From NCBI RefSeq assembly GCF_015354575.1, contig NZ_JACAFQ010000003.1, positions 1 to 64,000 of the forward strand: a DNA stretch of 64,000 nucleotides, in the 5' to 3' direction. Both the position numbers and the translations under genes were made by a program. Under the pieces are notes generated by a model that worked only from the letters and a program-made list of their open reading frames with translations, was not told the DNA's origin and did no database searches. Positions 15,024 through 19,472 of this stretch are shown here, one piece after another; within the stretch, counting starts at the first letter, position 1, and the number at the start of each line of letters is the position of its first letter. This DNA comes from Pseudomonas sp. UFMG81. GTDB lineage: Bacteria > Pseudomonadota > Gammaproteobacteria > Pseudomonadales > Pseudomonadaceae.

Positions 15024-17871
15024 GGCCTTGCAATTCTTCCAGCCCATCGTTCAAAGCTTGCTCCAGTTCACGCTTGTAGCGCAGATAGAGGCTGGTCGAG
15101 CCCTGTTCGTCCCCCAGCAGTTCGGACAAGTCCAGGTCGGTGATGTAGCACCGGTAACTGCCGGCACCGCGGCGTTGGCCCAGGATCTGCTGGGCGACCA
15201 CGCTGTACAGCTGGTCACCGTGCTCCAGTTCGGAAAACTCCTGTTGGTCGCAATAGAGCGTGACGTGTACCGCGTCGCCCGCGCCCGCCTGGAGAATCGC
15301 CTGCACCTCGTAGTAGGGCTGGTTGCGGCCGTCCTTGGGCGTCGGCCGCGGTTCCAGGGTGCGCGCCCTGCCAACACCGGACGGCAGCAATTGGTAGTAG
15401 CGAATCGCCAGGGCCGACTGTTGCAGGCTGTCCAGCGGTAGCTGTGCGTCGCGGCGCATCACCATCGATCGCAGGAAGCGCTGCAGCGGCAACAGCAGGT
15501 GCTGCTCGTCCTGCAGCGGCAGGCGTTGCTGCCACAGGGCATTGTGCTCGTCGAGCACATACAGGTCGGCCCAGCCCTCGAACAGGCGATAGAACACCTG
15601 GATGCAGTCGGGATGCCCCTGCTCGAGGACAAGCGGCAGGTCGTGGTCTTGCAGCGCATGGGGGTCCAGGTAGAGCGGGCTGTAGCAGCCGCGATCCTCG
15701 CCGAGCGCCTCGAGCACCGCGTCGTAGTCGTCCAGGGTGGCCAGGGTGACCTGCCCAGGCAGCAGCTCCAGCACGTGGGTGTGCTGGGCCACTTGCAGCA
15801 GGTAGCGGTGGCCCAGGCGCTGGTCGAGGAGCAATTGCACGGTGTCGAAGATACCCTCGACCCGCTGGGCGATGGCGTGGGCACGATTGTGGCAGTAACA
15901 CCGCACCCGTACTCGCGGTCGGTGGCTGCGCTGGCCCAGGCTGTTGAGAAAGTCGCGCAGGCAGCGCACCAGTGCGTTTTCGCCGTCGTAGCGCTGTACT
16001 AGCACCTCGTTCCAGCTGTTGAGCGTGACCTGGTCAAGCGTCAGTACCAGGTTCTCGCGCACCCCTGCGTAGCTCAGCGAATCGGTACGCTCCGTGGTCA
16101 TCAGGATGTTCAGGTCGCGATGGTGGCGCAGCGGGTCCAGGCCCACGTTGACCAACAGGAGGATTTCATCGGCCATGCTGGGCTGCAACAGGCGTACTTC
16201 ACTGACCGGTTCGAGCGGCAGCGGGATGCTCTGTTGCAGGCTGCCGATCAGGTTGAACAGCTCGAACTCGCTGAGGTCGCTGGCCCCTGGGTGCAGGGCG
16301 ATCCGCGTGCTGCTGTCGATCACGCCGTTGCGGTGTGCCCAGGTCAGCAGTTCGAGCAGTTCGCGGCAACGCTTGATCGGGCTGAAGTGCTCCCACTCGT
16401 GCACGCCGAGGCTGCCGTTGTACAGCCCCCAGTGATGGCAGCCCGGTTCCTTGCGGTTGGGCGCGTTCACCAGCGTGAGGGTGTCCTCGGCCAGGTCTGG
16501 GGCGATCCCGGGGTTGATCACCTCGATCTTGCCGGCGCGCCGCTCGAAGGCGGCGTAGAGACGCCGGCCAAGGACGTTGAGGTCGCGCTGGTCGGCACGG
16601 CTGCTGGCGTCCTGGTCGCGGGCGAACTGGGCCAGGAAGCGGTAGCAGTGGTTCAGTTCCGCCACCAGTTCGCGGCGTTCCACCGCCACCTGGCGCACCT
16701 TCCACTGGCTACGGCTGTCGAGCAAGGCCAGTTGGCGCTCGTCCCAGCCCCATTCCTCGACCAGTTTCGCCAGCAGTTGGCGCTGCCAACCACTGCTGCG
16801 GGCGCTGGCGCCGGTGAGCTTCTTGTTGACTTTCAGGTAGAGGCTGCGCCTGGCCAGTTCCAGGCGTTCGGTTTCGCCACGCTGCTGAAGGTAGCGTTCG
16901 ATACGGCGGTAGACCATCACGTAGGGGTCGAGCTCGTCGAGCTCCAGGCGATTGGCAAACACCGCCTGCTTGTAGTCCAGGCTCAGGCAGCGCACCTCAG
17001 GGTGTTCGCTGGCATAGGCCTCGGTGAGCAGCAGTTTGAGCAGCGATTTGTAGGGTGAGTCGATGCCTTTGTACAACTGCCAAAGCCCGGCACCGACGTA
17101 TTCCCCCGCAGGGATGTGCGCCAGGTGGCCAAGGTCGAGATCGTCGCGGGCGCGAATGAAGCGCTTGGACAAAAGGGTCTGGGTATAGGCGCGGTAGTTA
17201 TGCTCCTGGTACACCGGCACCAGCCACCACAGCGGGGTGCGCCCGGCCAGCCAGAGGGCGGTGCGGTAAAACTCGTCGAGCAGCAGGTAATGCTGGGTGG
17301 TGCCGCAATCGTCGGAACTGAGCTGGCTGTCGCGTTCGCCTTGGACGAACCCCTGCGGCTCGATCAGGAACAGATGCGCTTCGGCGCCTTGGCTGGCGGC
17401 CCAGGCCTCGAGCAGCTGGCATTTGCGCCGCAGCTCGGCCTGCGCCGGTTCGGGCAGGTCGGGCGCATGGCATACCCACAGGTCCATGTCGCTCTGCTCG
17501 GCCTGGGCCAGGGTGCCGAGGCTGCCCATCAAGAACAGCCCATGGATCGGCTGTGGTGGGTTGCCGTGGCGGGCTTTGTAGGTGAACGAGCGGGTCAGGC
17601 GCTGGGCCTCGGCCAGCAGCTCCTCGTCCGGCTCGAAGCCTGAGATGCCGGCTGGCGTGTTGCCGGAGACATAGCCCGGGAGCAGGGGATGATTGACGTG
17701 GAGGAACAGCGGCAACAGCGTGAGTACCAGCTGTTGGCGCGTGGACAGCCCTTCCCTCGCCCGTGCCAGGCGGCCTTGGTTGATCTTCAGAAAGCGTGCG
17801 CGCAGCCTCGACAGTTCCTTGCGGTCGATGCCTTGATCGATGTCGGGGCGGATTTCGTGGGGGTGGGTCAT
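15016..17871 (-). CDS. cyaA: Class I adenylate cyclase CyaA
   Basis: A 951-residue class I adenylate cyclase that makes cAMP. The N-terminal catalytic nucleotidyltransferase region shows LFLMGSLGTLAQAEQSDMDLWVCH near residues 105-135, where G-S and D-x-D form the active site. The long C-terminal regulatory part is typical, with length near the Pseudomonas norm (about 950). The last codons overlap a REP arm. Minus-strand gene, with a REP pair and a TIGR02647 gene upstream. Confidence 0.95.
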   Translation of the reverse strand: MTHPHEIRPDIDQGIDRKELSRLRARFLKINQGRLARAREGLSTRQQLVLTLLPLFLHVNHPLLPGYVSGNTPAGISGFEPDEELLAEAQRLTRSFTYKARHGNPPQPIHGLFLMGSLGTLAQAEQSDMDLWVCHAPDLPEPAQAELRRKCQLLEAWAASQGAEAHLFLIEPQGFVQGERDSQLSSDDCGTTQHYLLLDEFYRTALWLAGRTPLWWLVPVYQEHNYRAYTQTLLSKRFIRARDDLDLGHLAHIPAGEYVGAGLWQLYKGIDSPYKSLLKLLLTEAYASEHPEVRCLSLDYKQAVFANRLELDELDPYVMVYRRIERYLQQRGETERLELARRSLYLKVNKKLTGASARSSGWQRQLLAKLVEEWGWDERQLALLDSRSQWKVRQVAVERRELVAELNHCYRFLAQFARDQDASSRADQRDLNVLGRRLYAAFERRAGKIEVINPGIAPDLAEDTLTLVNAPNRKEPGCHHWGLYNGSLGVHEWEHFSPIKRCRELLELLTWAHRNGVIDSSTRIALHPGASDLSEFELFNLIGSLQQSIPLPLEPVSEVRLLQPSMADEILLLVNVGLDPLRHHRDLNILMTTERTDSLSYAGVRENLVLTLDQVTLNSWNEVLVQRYDGENALVRCLRDFLNSLGQRSHRPRVRVRCYCHNRAHAIAQRVEGIFDTVQLLLDQRLGHRYLLQVAQHTHVLELLPGQVTLATLDDYDAVLEALGEDRGCYSPLYLDPHALQDHDLPLVLEQGHPDCIQVFYRLFEGWADLYVLDEHNALWQQRLPLQDEQHLLLPLQRFLRSMVMRRDAQLPLDSLQQSALAIRYYQLLPSGVGRARTLEPRPTPKDGRNQPYYEVQAILQAGAGDAVHVTLYCDQQEFSELEHGDQLYSVVAQQILGQRRGAGSYRCYITDLDLSELLGDEQGSTSLYLRYKRELEQALNDGLEELQGPL

Positions 17872-17981
17872 TGCGCGCTCAGGCAGGCCGGTGGGGCAGT
17901 GCCGAGTTTAGCCTGAGTGGCGGGGTCGGATAAGCGTTAAATGATTTTTTGGCGCCAGTAATCCAGCGCTTGTGCGGGCCT

Positions 17982-18048
17982 CATCGCCGGCAAGCCGGCT
18001 CCCACAGGCACGGTGCTGTCAGGTGTGGGAGCCGGCTTGCCGGCGATG
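17982..18048. repeat. REP-like inverted pair, CATCGCCGGCAAGCCGGC type
   Basis: 25-base arms at 17982-18006 and 18024-18048 pair between cyaA and the TIGR02647 gene. The same type lies at 32889-32967. Confidence 0.85.
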
Positions 18049-18063
18049 GCTGCACCACGAATC

Positions 18064-18309
18064 TCAGGCGGGTTGTGGGGTTTTCAGGATGGTCAGCAGC
18101 AATTGGACGCTTTCGGCGGCATCGTTGCCGAGGCTGGTGAGGTAGCCGCCATCGGGCTGGTCGGTCAGCTCTTTCTCATACAGGCGCTTGGCGGCGGCGA
18201 TCAGGGCGGGGGGCGCGCTGCTGCCAACCTTGATGCCTTCCTGGTGGCTGTCCAGGTTGAACAGGGCGAGGACTTCCAGTTCGGCGATCAATTCGGGGGT
18301 GAAGGACAT
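18064..18309 (-). CDS. TIGR02647 family protein
   Basis: An 81-residue protein matching TIGR02647 from start to end (MSFTPELIAELEVLALFNLDSHQEGIKV..., QPDGGYLTSLG), a small helical family of gammaproteobacteria thought to bind DNA. ATG 18309 follows AGGAG by 7 bases. That ribosome site is inside a 14-bp perfect hairpin (18316-18351) that separates it from the upstream acidic-protein gene, so its translation may be controlled or coupled. Confidence 0.85.
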   Translation of the reverse strand: MSFTPELIAELEVLALFNLDSHQEGIKVGSSAPPALIAAAKRLYEKELTDQPDGGYLTSLGNDAAESVQLLLTILKTPQPA

Positions 18310-18315
18310 AAGGCG

Positions 18316-18351
18316 ACTCCTGACTTCCAGACAAGGATGGAAGTCAGGAGT
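18316..18351 (-). promoter_or_regulatory. 14-bp perfect hairpin burying the ribosome site of the TIGR02647 gene
   Basis: ACTCCTGACTTCCA at 18316-18329 and TGGAAGTCAGGAGT at 18338-18351 pair without mismatch around 8 bases. On the minus strand the 3' arm contains AGGAG, the Shine-Dalgarno of the TIGR02647 gene, 7 bases before its ATG. No U-run follows, so control of translation is likelier than termination. Confidence 0.6.
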
Positions 18352-18361
18352 GTAGTCAGGC

Positions 18362-18664
18362 TTATTCGATATCGCCTTGATCCGCCTCAGGTGGCAGCTC
18401 CGGCAGGGCGCGCAGGGCGGCTTCGTACCACTCGGTATTGAACGCGCGGTCCGCATCGAGCATGGCGTCGATCTCGATGGCCAGCACATGAGCCATGAGG
18501 TTGAGGATGTCTTCGCGCTCGTAGCCGACCAGGGTCAGCTTGTTGAATGTGGCCTTGGCCGCAGGCGGCTCGCCGCTTTCGATCTGGTTCTCGATGGCCT
18601 GGGTCAGCGTGGCCTCGGCGAAGTCTTCTTCATCATTGTTGTCGATGTCTTGGGGTTCGCTCAT
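18362..18664 (-). CDS. Conserved acidic hypothetical protein
   Basis: A 100-residue protein with an acidic start (MSEPQDIDNNDEEDFAEA) and a helical rest (LTLVGYEREDILNLMAHVLAIEIDAML..., RAFNTEWYEAALRALPELP). The YEREDILNLMA segment suggests a helical bundle related to small proteins found beside cyaA in pseudomonads, but no named family is certain. Same strand as the TIGR02647 gene, 52 bases upstream, so probably one transcript. Confidence 0.7.
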   Translation of the reverse strand: MSEPQDIDNNDEEDFAEATLTQAIENQIESGEPPAAKATFNKLTLVGYEREDILNLMAHVLAIEIDAMLDADRAFNTEWYEAALRALPELPPEADQGDIE

Positions 18665-18809
18665 GGCGGTGCTCCTGTGGTGAAGCGCACAGTGTGCCAT
18701 GCCCGCCGCGCCAATGCCCGGCCATCGACGTCGCCCATGACGCTGGCCAAGGGTGGGGAAGGGGGCTATAACAGCCGGGCCATCCCCACACGGCCTGGAG
18801 GCTGTCTCA

Positions 18810-19472
18810 ATGCTCAAGCTTCATGGATTCGCGGTCAGCAACTACTACAACATGGTCAAGCTGGCGCTGTTGGCGAAAGGGCTGCCATTCGAAGAAGTGC
18901 CATTCTTCGGCGGCCAGATGCCCCAGGCCCTGGCGATCAGCCCGCGCGGCAAGGTGCCGGTGCTGGAGACCGAGCACGGCTTCCTCAGCGAGACCGGGGT
19001 GATCCTCGACTACATCGAGCAGACCCAGCCCGGCACGCCGTTGCTGCCTGCCGACGCCTTCGGCCAGGCCAAGGTGCGCGAGCTGCTGAGGGAGATCGAG
19101 CTGTACATCGAATTGCCGGCGCGCACCTGCTACGCCGAGGCGTTCTTCGGCGCGGCGGTGGAGCCGCTGATCAAGGAGCGTGCCCGGGCCGACCTGCTGG
19201 CGGGCTTCGCCACCCTCAAGCGCAATGGCAAGTTCGCCCCTTACGTGGCGGGCGAGCAGATGACCATCGCCGACCTGATGTTCTGCTTCTCGGTGGACCT
19301 GGCCTGCGCGGTGGGCAAGAAGGTGCTGAACATCGACTTCCTGGAGGACTTCCCGCAGGCGAAGGCGTTGCTGCAGCTGCTGGGGGACAACCCGCACATG
19401 GCGAAGATCGTGGCGGACAAGGACGCGGCGATGCCGGCGTTCATTGAGATGGTGAAAAGCGGTAAGCGTTGA
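18810..19472 (+). CDS. Glutathione S-transferase family protein
   Basis: A 220-residue GST. The thioredoxin-like N-terminal domain includes SNYYNMVKLALLAKG, ISPRGKVPVLET (the cis-Pro glutathione loop) and LSETGVILDYIEQ. The helical C-terminal domain carries MTIADLMFCFSVDLA. ATG 18810 starts the domain exactly; the longer upstream frame adds no homologous sequence. Substrate unknown. Confidence 0.9.
   Translation: MLKLHGFAVSNYYNMVKLALLAKGLPFEEVPFFGGQMPQALAISPRGKVPVLETEHGFLSETGVILDYIEQTQPGTPLLPADAFGQAKVRELLREIELYIELPARTCYAEAFFGAAVEPLIKERARADLLAGFATLKRNGKFAPYVAGEQMTIADLMFCFSVDLACAVGKKVLNIDFLEDFPQAKALLQLLGDNPHMAKIVADKDAAMPAFIEMVKSGKR

Follow-up and report, generated by a model that had tools for sequence, protein, structure and literature searches.

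A perfect 14-bp hairpin covers the ribosome-binding site of a TIGR02647 gene in Pseudomonas sp. UFMG81, and the outer end of its 5' arm overlaps CTACACT, a conserved element that resembles a -10 box. We consider the chances about even that this arrangement is a lineage-specific fold-back lock, lying across the gene's own promoter and acting on read-through RNA. According to this proposal, RNA polymerase directed by CTACACT would begin within the 5' arm. The resulting own-promoter mRNA, which would lack the AGGAG-pairing half of the arm, would carry a terminal stem-loop of 5-8 bp and leave the Shine-Dalgarno sequence (SD) exposed. RNA reading through from the 100-aa gene upstream would contain both arms, and its SD would be shut. 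Production of the TIGR02647 protein would then rely on the gene's own promoter, with read-through RNA contributing nothing, and any benefit to the cell is presumed. The perfect stem would be lineage-specific, probably left when the SD arm was copied by templating in inverted orientation.

The TIGR02647 locus

The window, the whole stretch of DNA that was analysed, comprises 64,000 nucleotides of contig NZ_JACAFQ010000003.1. The TIGR02647 gene lies on its minus strand, a point left unstated in the earlier note on this DNA, as was the neighbouring CTACACT at 18355-18349. The relevant features are the following.

18064..18309, minus strand: TIGR02647/DUF5669 gene, 81 aa, assigned by profile matches
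18309-18307, minus strand: ATG of the TIGR02647 gene
18317..18321, minus strand: Shine-Dalgarno AGGAG, read from the sequence 7 nt ahead of the ATG; relatives have a GGAG-like box
18316..18329, minus strand: 3' arm of the hairpin, TGGAAGTCAGGAGT, which holds the SD (inverted-repeat analysis)
18330..18337, minus strand: loop, TCCTTGTC, which many long-leader relatives share exactly or with one letter changed
18338..18351, minus strand: 5' arm, ACTCCTGACTTCCA, whose first three bases are shared with the -10-like hexamer
18349..18355, minus strand: CTACACT, -10-like, with hexamer TACACT at 18354-18349, conserved in leaders of relatives
18342..18345, minus strand: predicted transcription start, 4-7 nt past the hexamer and within the 5' arm, placed by spacing; stem starts cluster here in relatives
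18322..18345, minus strand: predicted residual 8-bp hairpin, GACTTCCA/TGGAAGTC, for an RNA starting at 18345 (5 bp if at 18342), from stepped-start folding
18362..18664, minus strand: 100-aa gene, co-directional and upstream of the TIGR02647 gene, with a homologue at 107 of the 108 loci inspected (duplicates included)

The 81-aa product matches the TIGR02647 profile with 132.7 bits, above the curated cut-off of 44.6, and the DUF5669 profile with 107.7 bits (cut-off 25.9). A TIGR02647 protein was present in all 199 Pseudomonas genomes searched. The ortholog name is presumably PA5273. A literature search by name found nothing on TIGR02647, no main-text mention of DUF5669 and nothing under PA5273. 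The choice of start codon is backed by relatives, since nearly all listed leaders show an aligned ATG with an adjacent upstream GGAG-like box. The 100-aa upstream protein had no match in Pfam or NCBIfam. The hairpin sits in the gap of 52 nt between its stop codon and the ATG of the TIGR02647 gene, with 10 nt from the stop to the 5' arm and 6 nt from the stop to CTACACT. Just 3' of the TIGR02647 gene, a long inverted repeat with GCCGGCAAGCCGGCTCCCACA spans 17974-18053, which we take to be a REP-type element. Stems of the same kind recur in the genome sample, for example at L209, L210 and L225.

The hairpin is not a chance product

The inverted repeat joins 18316-18329 to 18338-18351, with all 14 pairs formed around a loop of 8 nt, and the minus-strand RNA reads ACUCCUGACUUCCA-UCCUUGUC-UGGAAGUCAGGAGU-CGCCUU-AUG. 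The mismatch-free stem over the SD was thus correctly described in the earlier note, and its placement of AGGAG in the 3' arm, at 18321-18317 and 7 nt before the ATG, was likewise borne out. The region 18280-18380 (minus strand) folds at -33.8 kcal/mol, compared with -19.67 (sd 3.05) for shuffled sequences (z = -4.63), and none of 200 dinucleotide shuffles folded as well. The hairpin is present as a single copy in the 6.06-Mb genome, even with up to 3 mismatches allowed and the loop left free.

To place the stem against a background, perfect stems of at least 14 bp with loops of 3-12 nt were counted in 464 kb of the same genome, made up of the window and 20 stretches of 20 kb, and 14 were found. 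With both strands read (28 in all), five stems had an SD-like motif in the 3' arm and a formal start downstream, that is, a start 4-12 nt past the motif followed by at least 60 open codons. The TIGR02647 hairpin is the only ATG case of the five, and the other four are GTG or TTG frames at REP-type repeats. Because of the shuffle folding, the uniqueness of the hairpin and its rarity among background stems, it is not a chance product. An Rfam search over 17500-19200 returned nine matches, all under the gathering score and none over the hairpin; eight were microRNA families on a REP-type repeat and one was a lncRNA domain.

Since the hairpin comes directly past the stop codon of the 100-aa gene, it could be taken for the intrinsic terminator of that gene. 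This reading is hardly credible, as no T run follows the stem on the minus strand, where CGCCTTAT is found instead, and a scan of 17800-18900 called no terminator-like site on this strand.

A -10-like element shares bases with the 5' arm

The 5' arm begins with the last three bases of CTACACT. Leaders of relatives were drawn from 207 loci (duplicates included), 182 of them distinct over 150 nt; the 199-genome search listed its best 150 matches, so that the most distant leaders are under-represented. Among the matches listed, CTACACT is the commonest leader 7-mer besides the SD box, being found within 200 nt of the ATG in 120 of the 182 distinct leaders and missing from this range in the remaining 62. 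Its distance from the ATG varies from 43 to 161 nt. Four loci (L066, L067, L068 and L092) have the 100-aa gene and the TIGR02647 gene about 900-990 bp apart. Two of these, the distant L067 and L092 (65-66% protein identity), keep CTACACT near TIGR02647 despite the gap of about 900 bp; L066 and L068, which have the same wide-gap layout, have no CTACACT within 200 nt.

By its sequence, CTACACT looks like a -10 element and is a candidate promoter of the TIGR02647 gene. Passages of PMC2375449 and PMC11784136 give CTATACT as the RpoS-type -10 element of pseudomonads. CTACACT differs from the form given there by one letter, and the six letters of seven that are alike take in both the C that precedes the hexamer and the closing ACT. 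A sigma70 promoter scan found no promoter (0.2 expected), and no good -35 is visible ahead of CTACACT. In P. syringae, the start-site motifs described in a section of PMC3247240 have a pronounced -10 and no obvious -35. Within the 464-kb sample, CTACACT showed no significant enrichment or strand orientation upstream of genes, though sites were few: two sense and four antisense upstream and one in coding sequence, which ranks it 57th of 210 anagrams.

From the conservation of the motif and the usual spacing, we infer a start at 18345-18342. The earlier note had counted a transcription start inside the hairpin against its view of the stem. The predicted start does fall in the 5' arm, and the predicted lock would therefore be limited to RNA arriving from upstream.

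Two other patterns are shared among the leaders. CTGGACA followed after about 17 nt by CACCTTA occurs in leaders without a near CTACACT (e.g. L094 and L110); CTGGACA is found in 101 and CACCTTA in 97 of the 182 distinct leaders, and the pair may be another promoter. An AAGTC-(A/T/C)-GGAG box around the SD (18317-18327 in the window) recurs in most leaders, hairpin-less ones included, and GTCTGGA is present in 151 of 182, not always at the SD. A role of this box beyond that of the SD may exist.

Predicted accessibility of the SD depends on the origin of the RNA

The earlier note held that so strong a stem should block initiation unless something opened it. Stepped-start folding upholds this for RNA with both arms, in which opening of the SD (GGAG) is predicted to cost about 11 to 11.6 kcal/mol when the RNA starts upstream of the arm. 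The claim is not supported for own-promoter mRNA: the predicted cost is 3.2 kcal/mol when the RNA starts 2 nt past the hexamer and 1.7-2.1 kcal/mol at the expected starts. For the 5-nt AGGAG, the values are 13.5 kcal/mol, computed with a different upstream end, versus 2.8-3.1 for own-promoter RNA. The median SD opening cost of the hairpin-type leaders is 11.6 kcal/mol in read-through RNA and 3.0 in own-promoter RNA. The gap between the two exceeds 5 kcal/mol in 13 of 13 distinct hairpin-type leaders, in 4 of 39 long leaders (L092 included) and in 1 of 53 far leaders. Given the gap of only 6 nt from the upstream stop to CTACACT and the lack of any called terminator-like site, RNA crossing from the 100-aa gene is plausible.

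The high cost for RNA with both arms would suit a main mRNA whose SD is blocked until a regulator, ribosomes from upstream or heat opens it. We find this quite improbable, since a conserved -10-like element overlaps the arm and the hairpin form is confined to a small minority of the genus. Opening by ribosomes from the upstream gene, which had been suggested in the earlier note, is unlikely on a footprint argument, because these would stop 10 nt short of the 5' arm and 52 nt short of the ATG. Nor would heat suffice: the predicted read-through cost falls from 13.6 kcal/mol at 20 C to 10.3 at 42 C and is still 7.6 at 60 C. A site for a post-transcriptional regulator of the RsmA/CsrA type, whose targets present GGA in the loop of a hairpin that covers the SD or lies close to it, is not indicated either, as the loop UCCUUGUC has no GGA and the only GGA of the hairpin lies in the paired 3' arm.

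An RNA thermometer was considered as a separate candidate and rejected, since by its predicted cost the SD stem stays shut in the physiological temperature range.

In three P. guariconensis-like loci (L051, L060 and L061), folding of read-through RNA predicts that another upstream stretch, CCTGACT, pairs with AGTCAGG. This CCTGACT adjoins and overlaps the promoter element, and the SD opening cost is 8.8-9.7 kcal/mol. Such pairing is predicted to be a second route to SD sequestration.

Stems at the predicted 5' end are common among relatives

The lock might also have no role at all. In that case, the palindrome would be a tolerated by-product of template switching, the main mRNA would start inside it, and selection would act on the promoter, on the SD region and on a 5' hairpin that shields the mRNA from decay. 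We regard this as a possibility to be taken seriously, though one that falls short of probable. It gains from the finding that 5' secondary structure impedes RppH and RNase E, as stated in a passage of PMC3997798, and from the absence of covariation in the 14-bp stem (see below). Its main support comes from the leaders of relatives. The 105 distinct leaders with CTACACT were grouped into 24 clusters, each represented by one leader. Across them, the folding energy of 28-nt segments dips at the predicted +1, with a mean z of -1.07; the means at -2 and -4 are -0.83 and -0.87, and those at the remaining offsets tried range from -0.53 to +0.34. Of the 24 clusters, 16 have a strong stem beginning at -3..+4. 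Among 66 background sites the count is 15, made up of six of 24 TACACT sites (the window's own site is one of the 24) and nine of 42 TATA-like sites. The stem enrichment at +1 is moderate, and the shared descent of the clusters means that independence is overstated in the Fisher p of 0.0003. Furthermore, the GGCACC..GGTGCC of long leaders has 93.0% of its cells paired at +1, as against 36-64% when the positions are slid.

Several observations speak against this no-role reading. Four of the 24 clusters lack a stem of at least 5 bp beginning at -3..+5, where the other 20 have one. With -4.9 kcal/mol at +1, the 5'-terminal stem in the window itself ranks fifth weakest of 24. Covariation in 37 long leaders (38 less L067; L092 belongs to neither class) is weak, with one pair and two cells altered on both sides, levels reached by 184 and 22 of 500 shuffles, respectively. 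A 5'-terminal stem that shields mRNA would fit the cluster pattern, and in the window it would correspond to the inner 5-8 bp of the hairpin stem.

Distribution and origin of the perfect stem

The hairpin-type pattern was found in 16 of 398 Pseudomonas genomes; named loci of this type include strains of P. mosselii, P. entomophila, P. sichuanensis, P. farsensis and P. peradeniyensis; two other strains named entomophila are of the long type. Conservation, the lack of which the earlier note would have counted against its view, is thus limited to this small set. Long-type relatives, one of them at 94% protein identity, have a separate GGCACC..GGTGCC hairpin instead and keep TCCTTGTCTGGAAGTCAGGAG, identical or nearly so. 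The segment TGGAAGTCAGGAG of the 3' arm also occurs in many long-leader relatives that are without the 14-nt 5' arm.

The search for covariation in relatives that had been proposed as a check gave no compensatory change in the stem, none of the 14 pairs being altered on both sides. The pair C17-G28 is broken in 5 of 13 hairpin-type leaders, and one base has been lost from the 5' arm in L007/L037. Hairpin-type leaders have hardly diverged: they differ by 0.019 per site in the 5' arm, 0.034 in the loop and 0.063 in the 3' arm, and the fourfold sites of both flanking genes by 0.275 (20 distinct loci). Since the loop varies as little as the arms do, the constraint is not assignable to pairing. The low divergence of the leader may stem instead from constraint on the promoter and leader or from recent exchange.

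The dyad could alternatively act as DNA, as the operator of a repressor covering the promoter: both the -10-like element and the expected start share bases with it, and its arms are perfect in the window. We hold this to be very improbable, because the 5' arm is shortened in L007/L037, the long-leader relatives do without a 5' arm yet largely keep the sequence of the 3' arm, and an operator motif would here be single-copy in the genome.

Seven of the 13 hairpin-type leaders correspond exactly to the prefix of a present-day long leader, an inverted copy of that leader's SD arm and its suffix (81 of 481 pairs); for the other six there is no exact derivation from a present-day long leader. Judging from these sequences, an older, separate hairpin probably gave way to the perfect stem when the SD arm was copied in inverted form. 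An exact match of this kind would be the expected trace of a templated switch between near-palindromic arms. On the tree built from both coding sequences, leader type must have changed at least four times. A single clade for the hairpin leader was rejected as disfavoured by this tree (AU p = 0.024), and loss, recurrence or recombination is therefore involved. Three loci nested among Pseudomonas in the tree (L034, L043 and L061) come from records titled Pantoea sp. or Paucimonas sp. and are probably from mislabelled genomes.

These data could also be extended to a rule for TIGR02647 genes over much of the genus, in which CTACACT is accompanied by a 5'-terminal hairpin of changeable sequence at about +1. 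In one part of the genus, a template switch would have fused this hairpin with the SD in a single mutational step, giving a promoter-dependent translation switch. The fusion would perhaps have occurred more than once or have been spread by recombination. This wider reading seems rather unlikely to us.

Relation to known systems

Taken as a lineage-specific lock on read-through RNA, the TIGR02647 arrangement would by analogy work like that of T4 gene e. Passages of PMC3014915 describe sequestration of the SD and/or AUG in T4 genes e (lysozyme), soc, 49 and I-TevI; for gene e, they report that long transcripts give 100-fold lower synthesis and that late promoters lie within the region encoding the 5' strand. 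In both cases, the SD is contained in the 3' arm of a strong stem. By that account, transcripts from the proximal promoters of gene e do without the 5' strand of the stem and longer transcripts are shut; for TIGR02647, both would be so by prediction. Unlike gene e, TIGR02647 is a chromosomal gene with a -10-like element in place of a phage late promoter and with no known timing programme, its start and the effect on translation are predicted, and its stem is confined to a small part of the genus.

The IS10/Tn10 transposase is also protected from read-through RNA. There, as proposed here, RNA from outside folds over the ribosome site. In contrast to the TIGR02647 lock, that of IS10/Tn10 serves a transposon against chance activation.

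The predicted terminal stems recall the 5'-terminal stem-loops that stabilise mRNA, a principle described in PMC3997798, which cites papers on ompA and papA. Like these, the stem predicted in 20 of the 24 clusters would begin at the 5' end of the mRNA or a few nt from it; unlike them, the window's version is weak and is a prediction from folding. The presumed mutational origin resembles quasi-palindrome template switching, which a portion of PMC3820800 presents as an imperfect inverted repeat made perfect by copying one arm. Present-day sequences likewise suggest a perfect repeat made from one copied arm. Compared with that description, a longer segment would have been replaced here, and the tree demands several changes of leader type.

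If the lock is real, TIGR02647 would be a bacterial chromosomal case of the T4-type arrangement, in which translation of an RNA depends on where that RNA was started. The natural variants with and without the lock would then offer a measure of its effect, and a single templated mutation would be able to create a regulatory hairpin. The claim of the earlier note would be tempered as well, since a gene whose SD sits under a strong stem may still be translated if the promoter lies in the stem.
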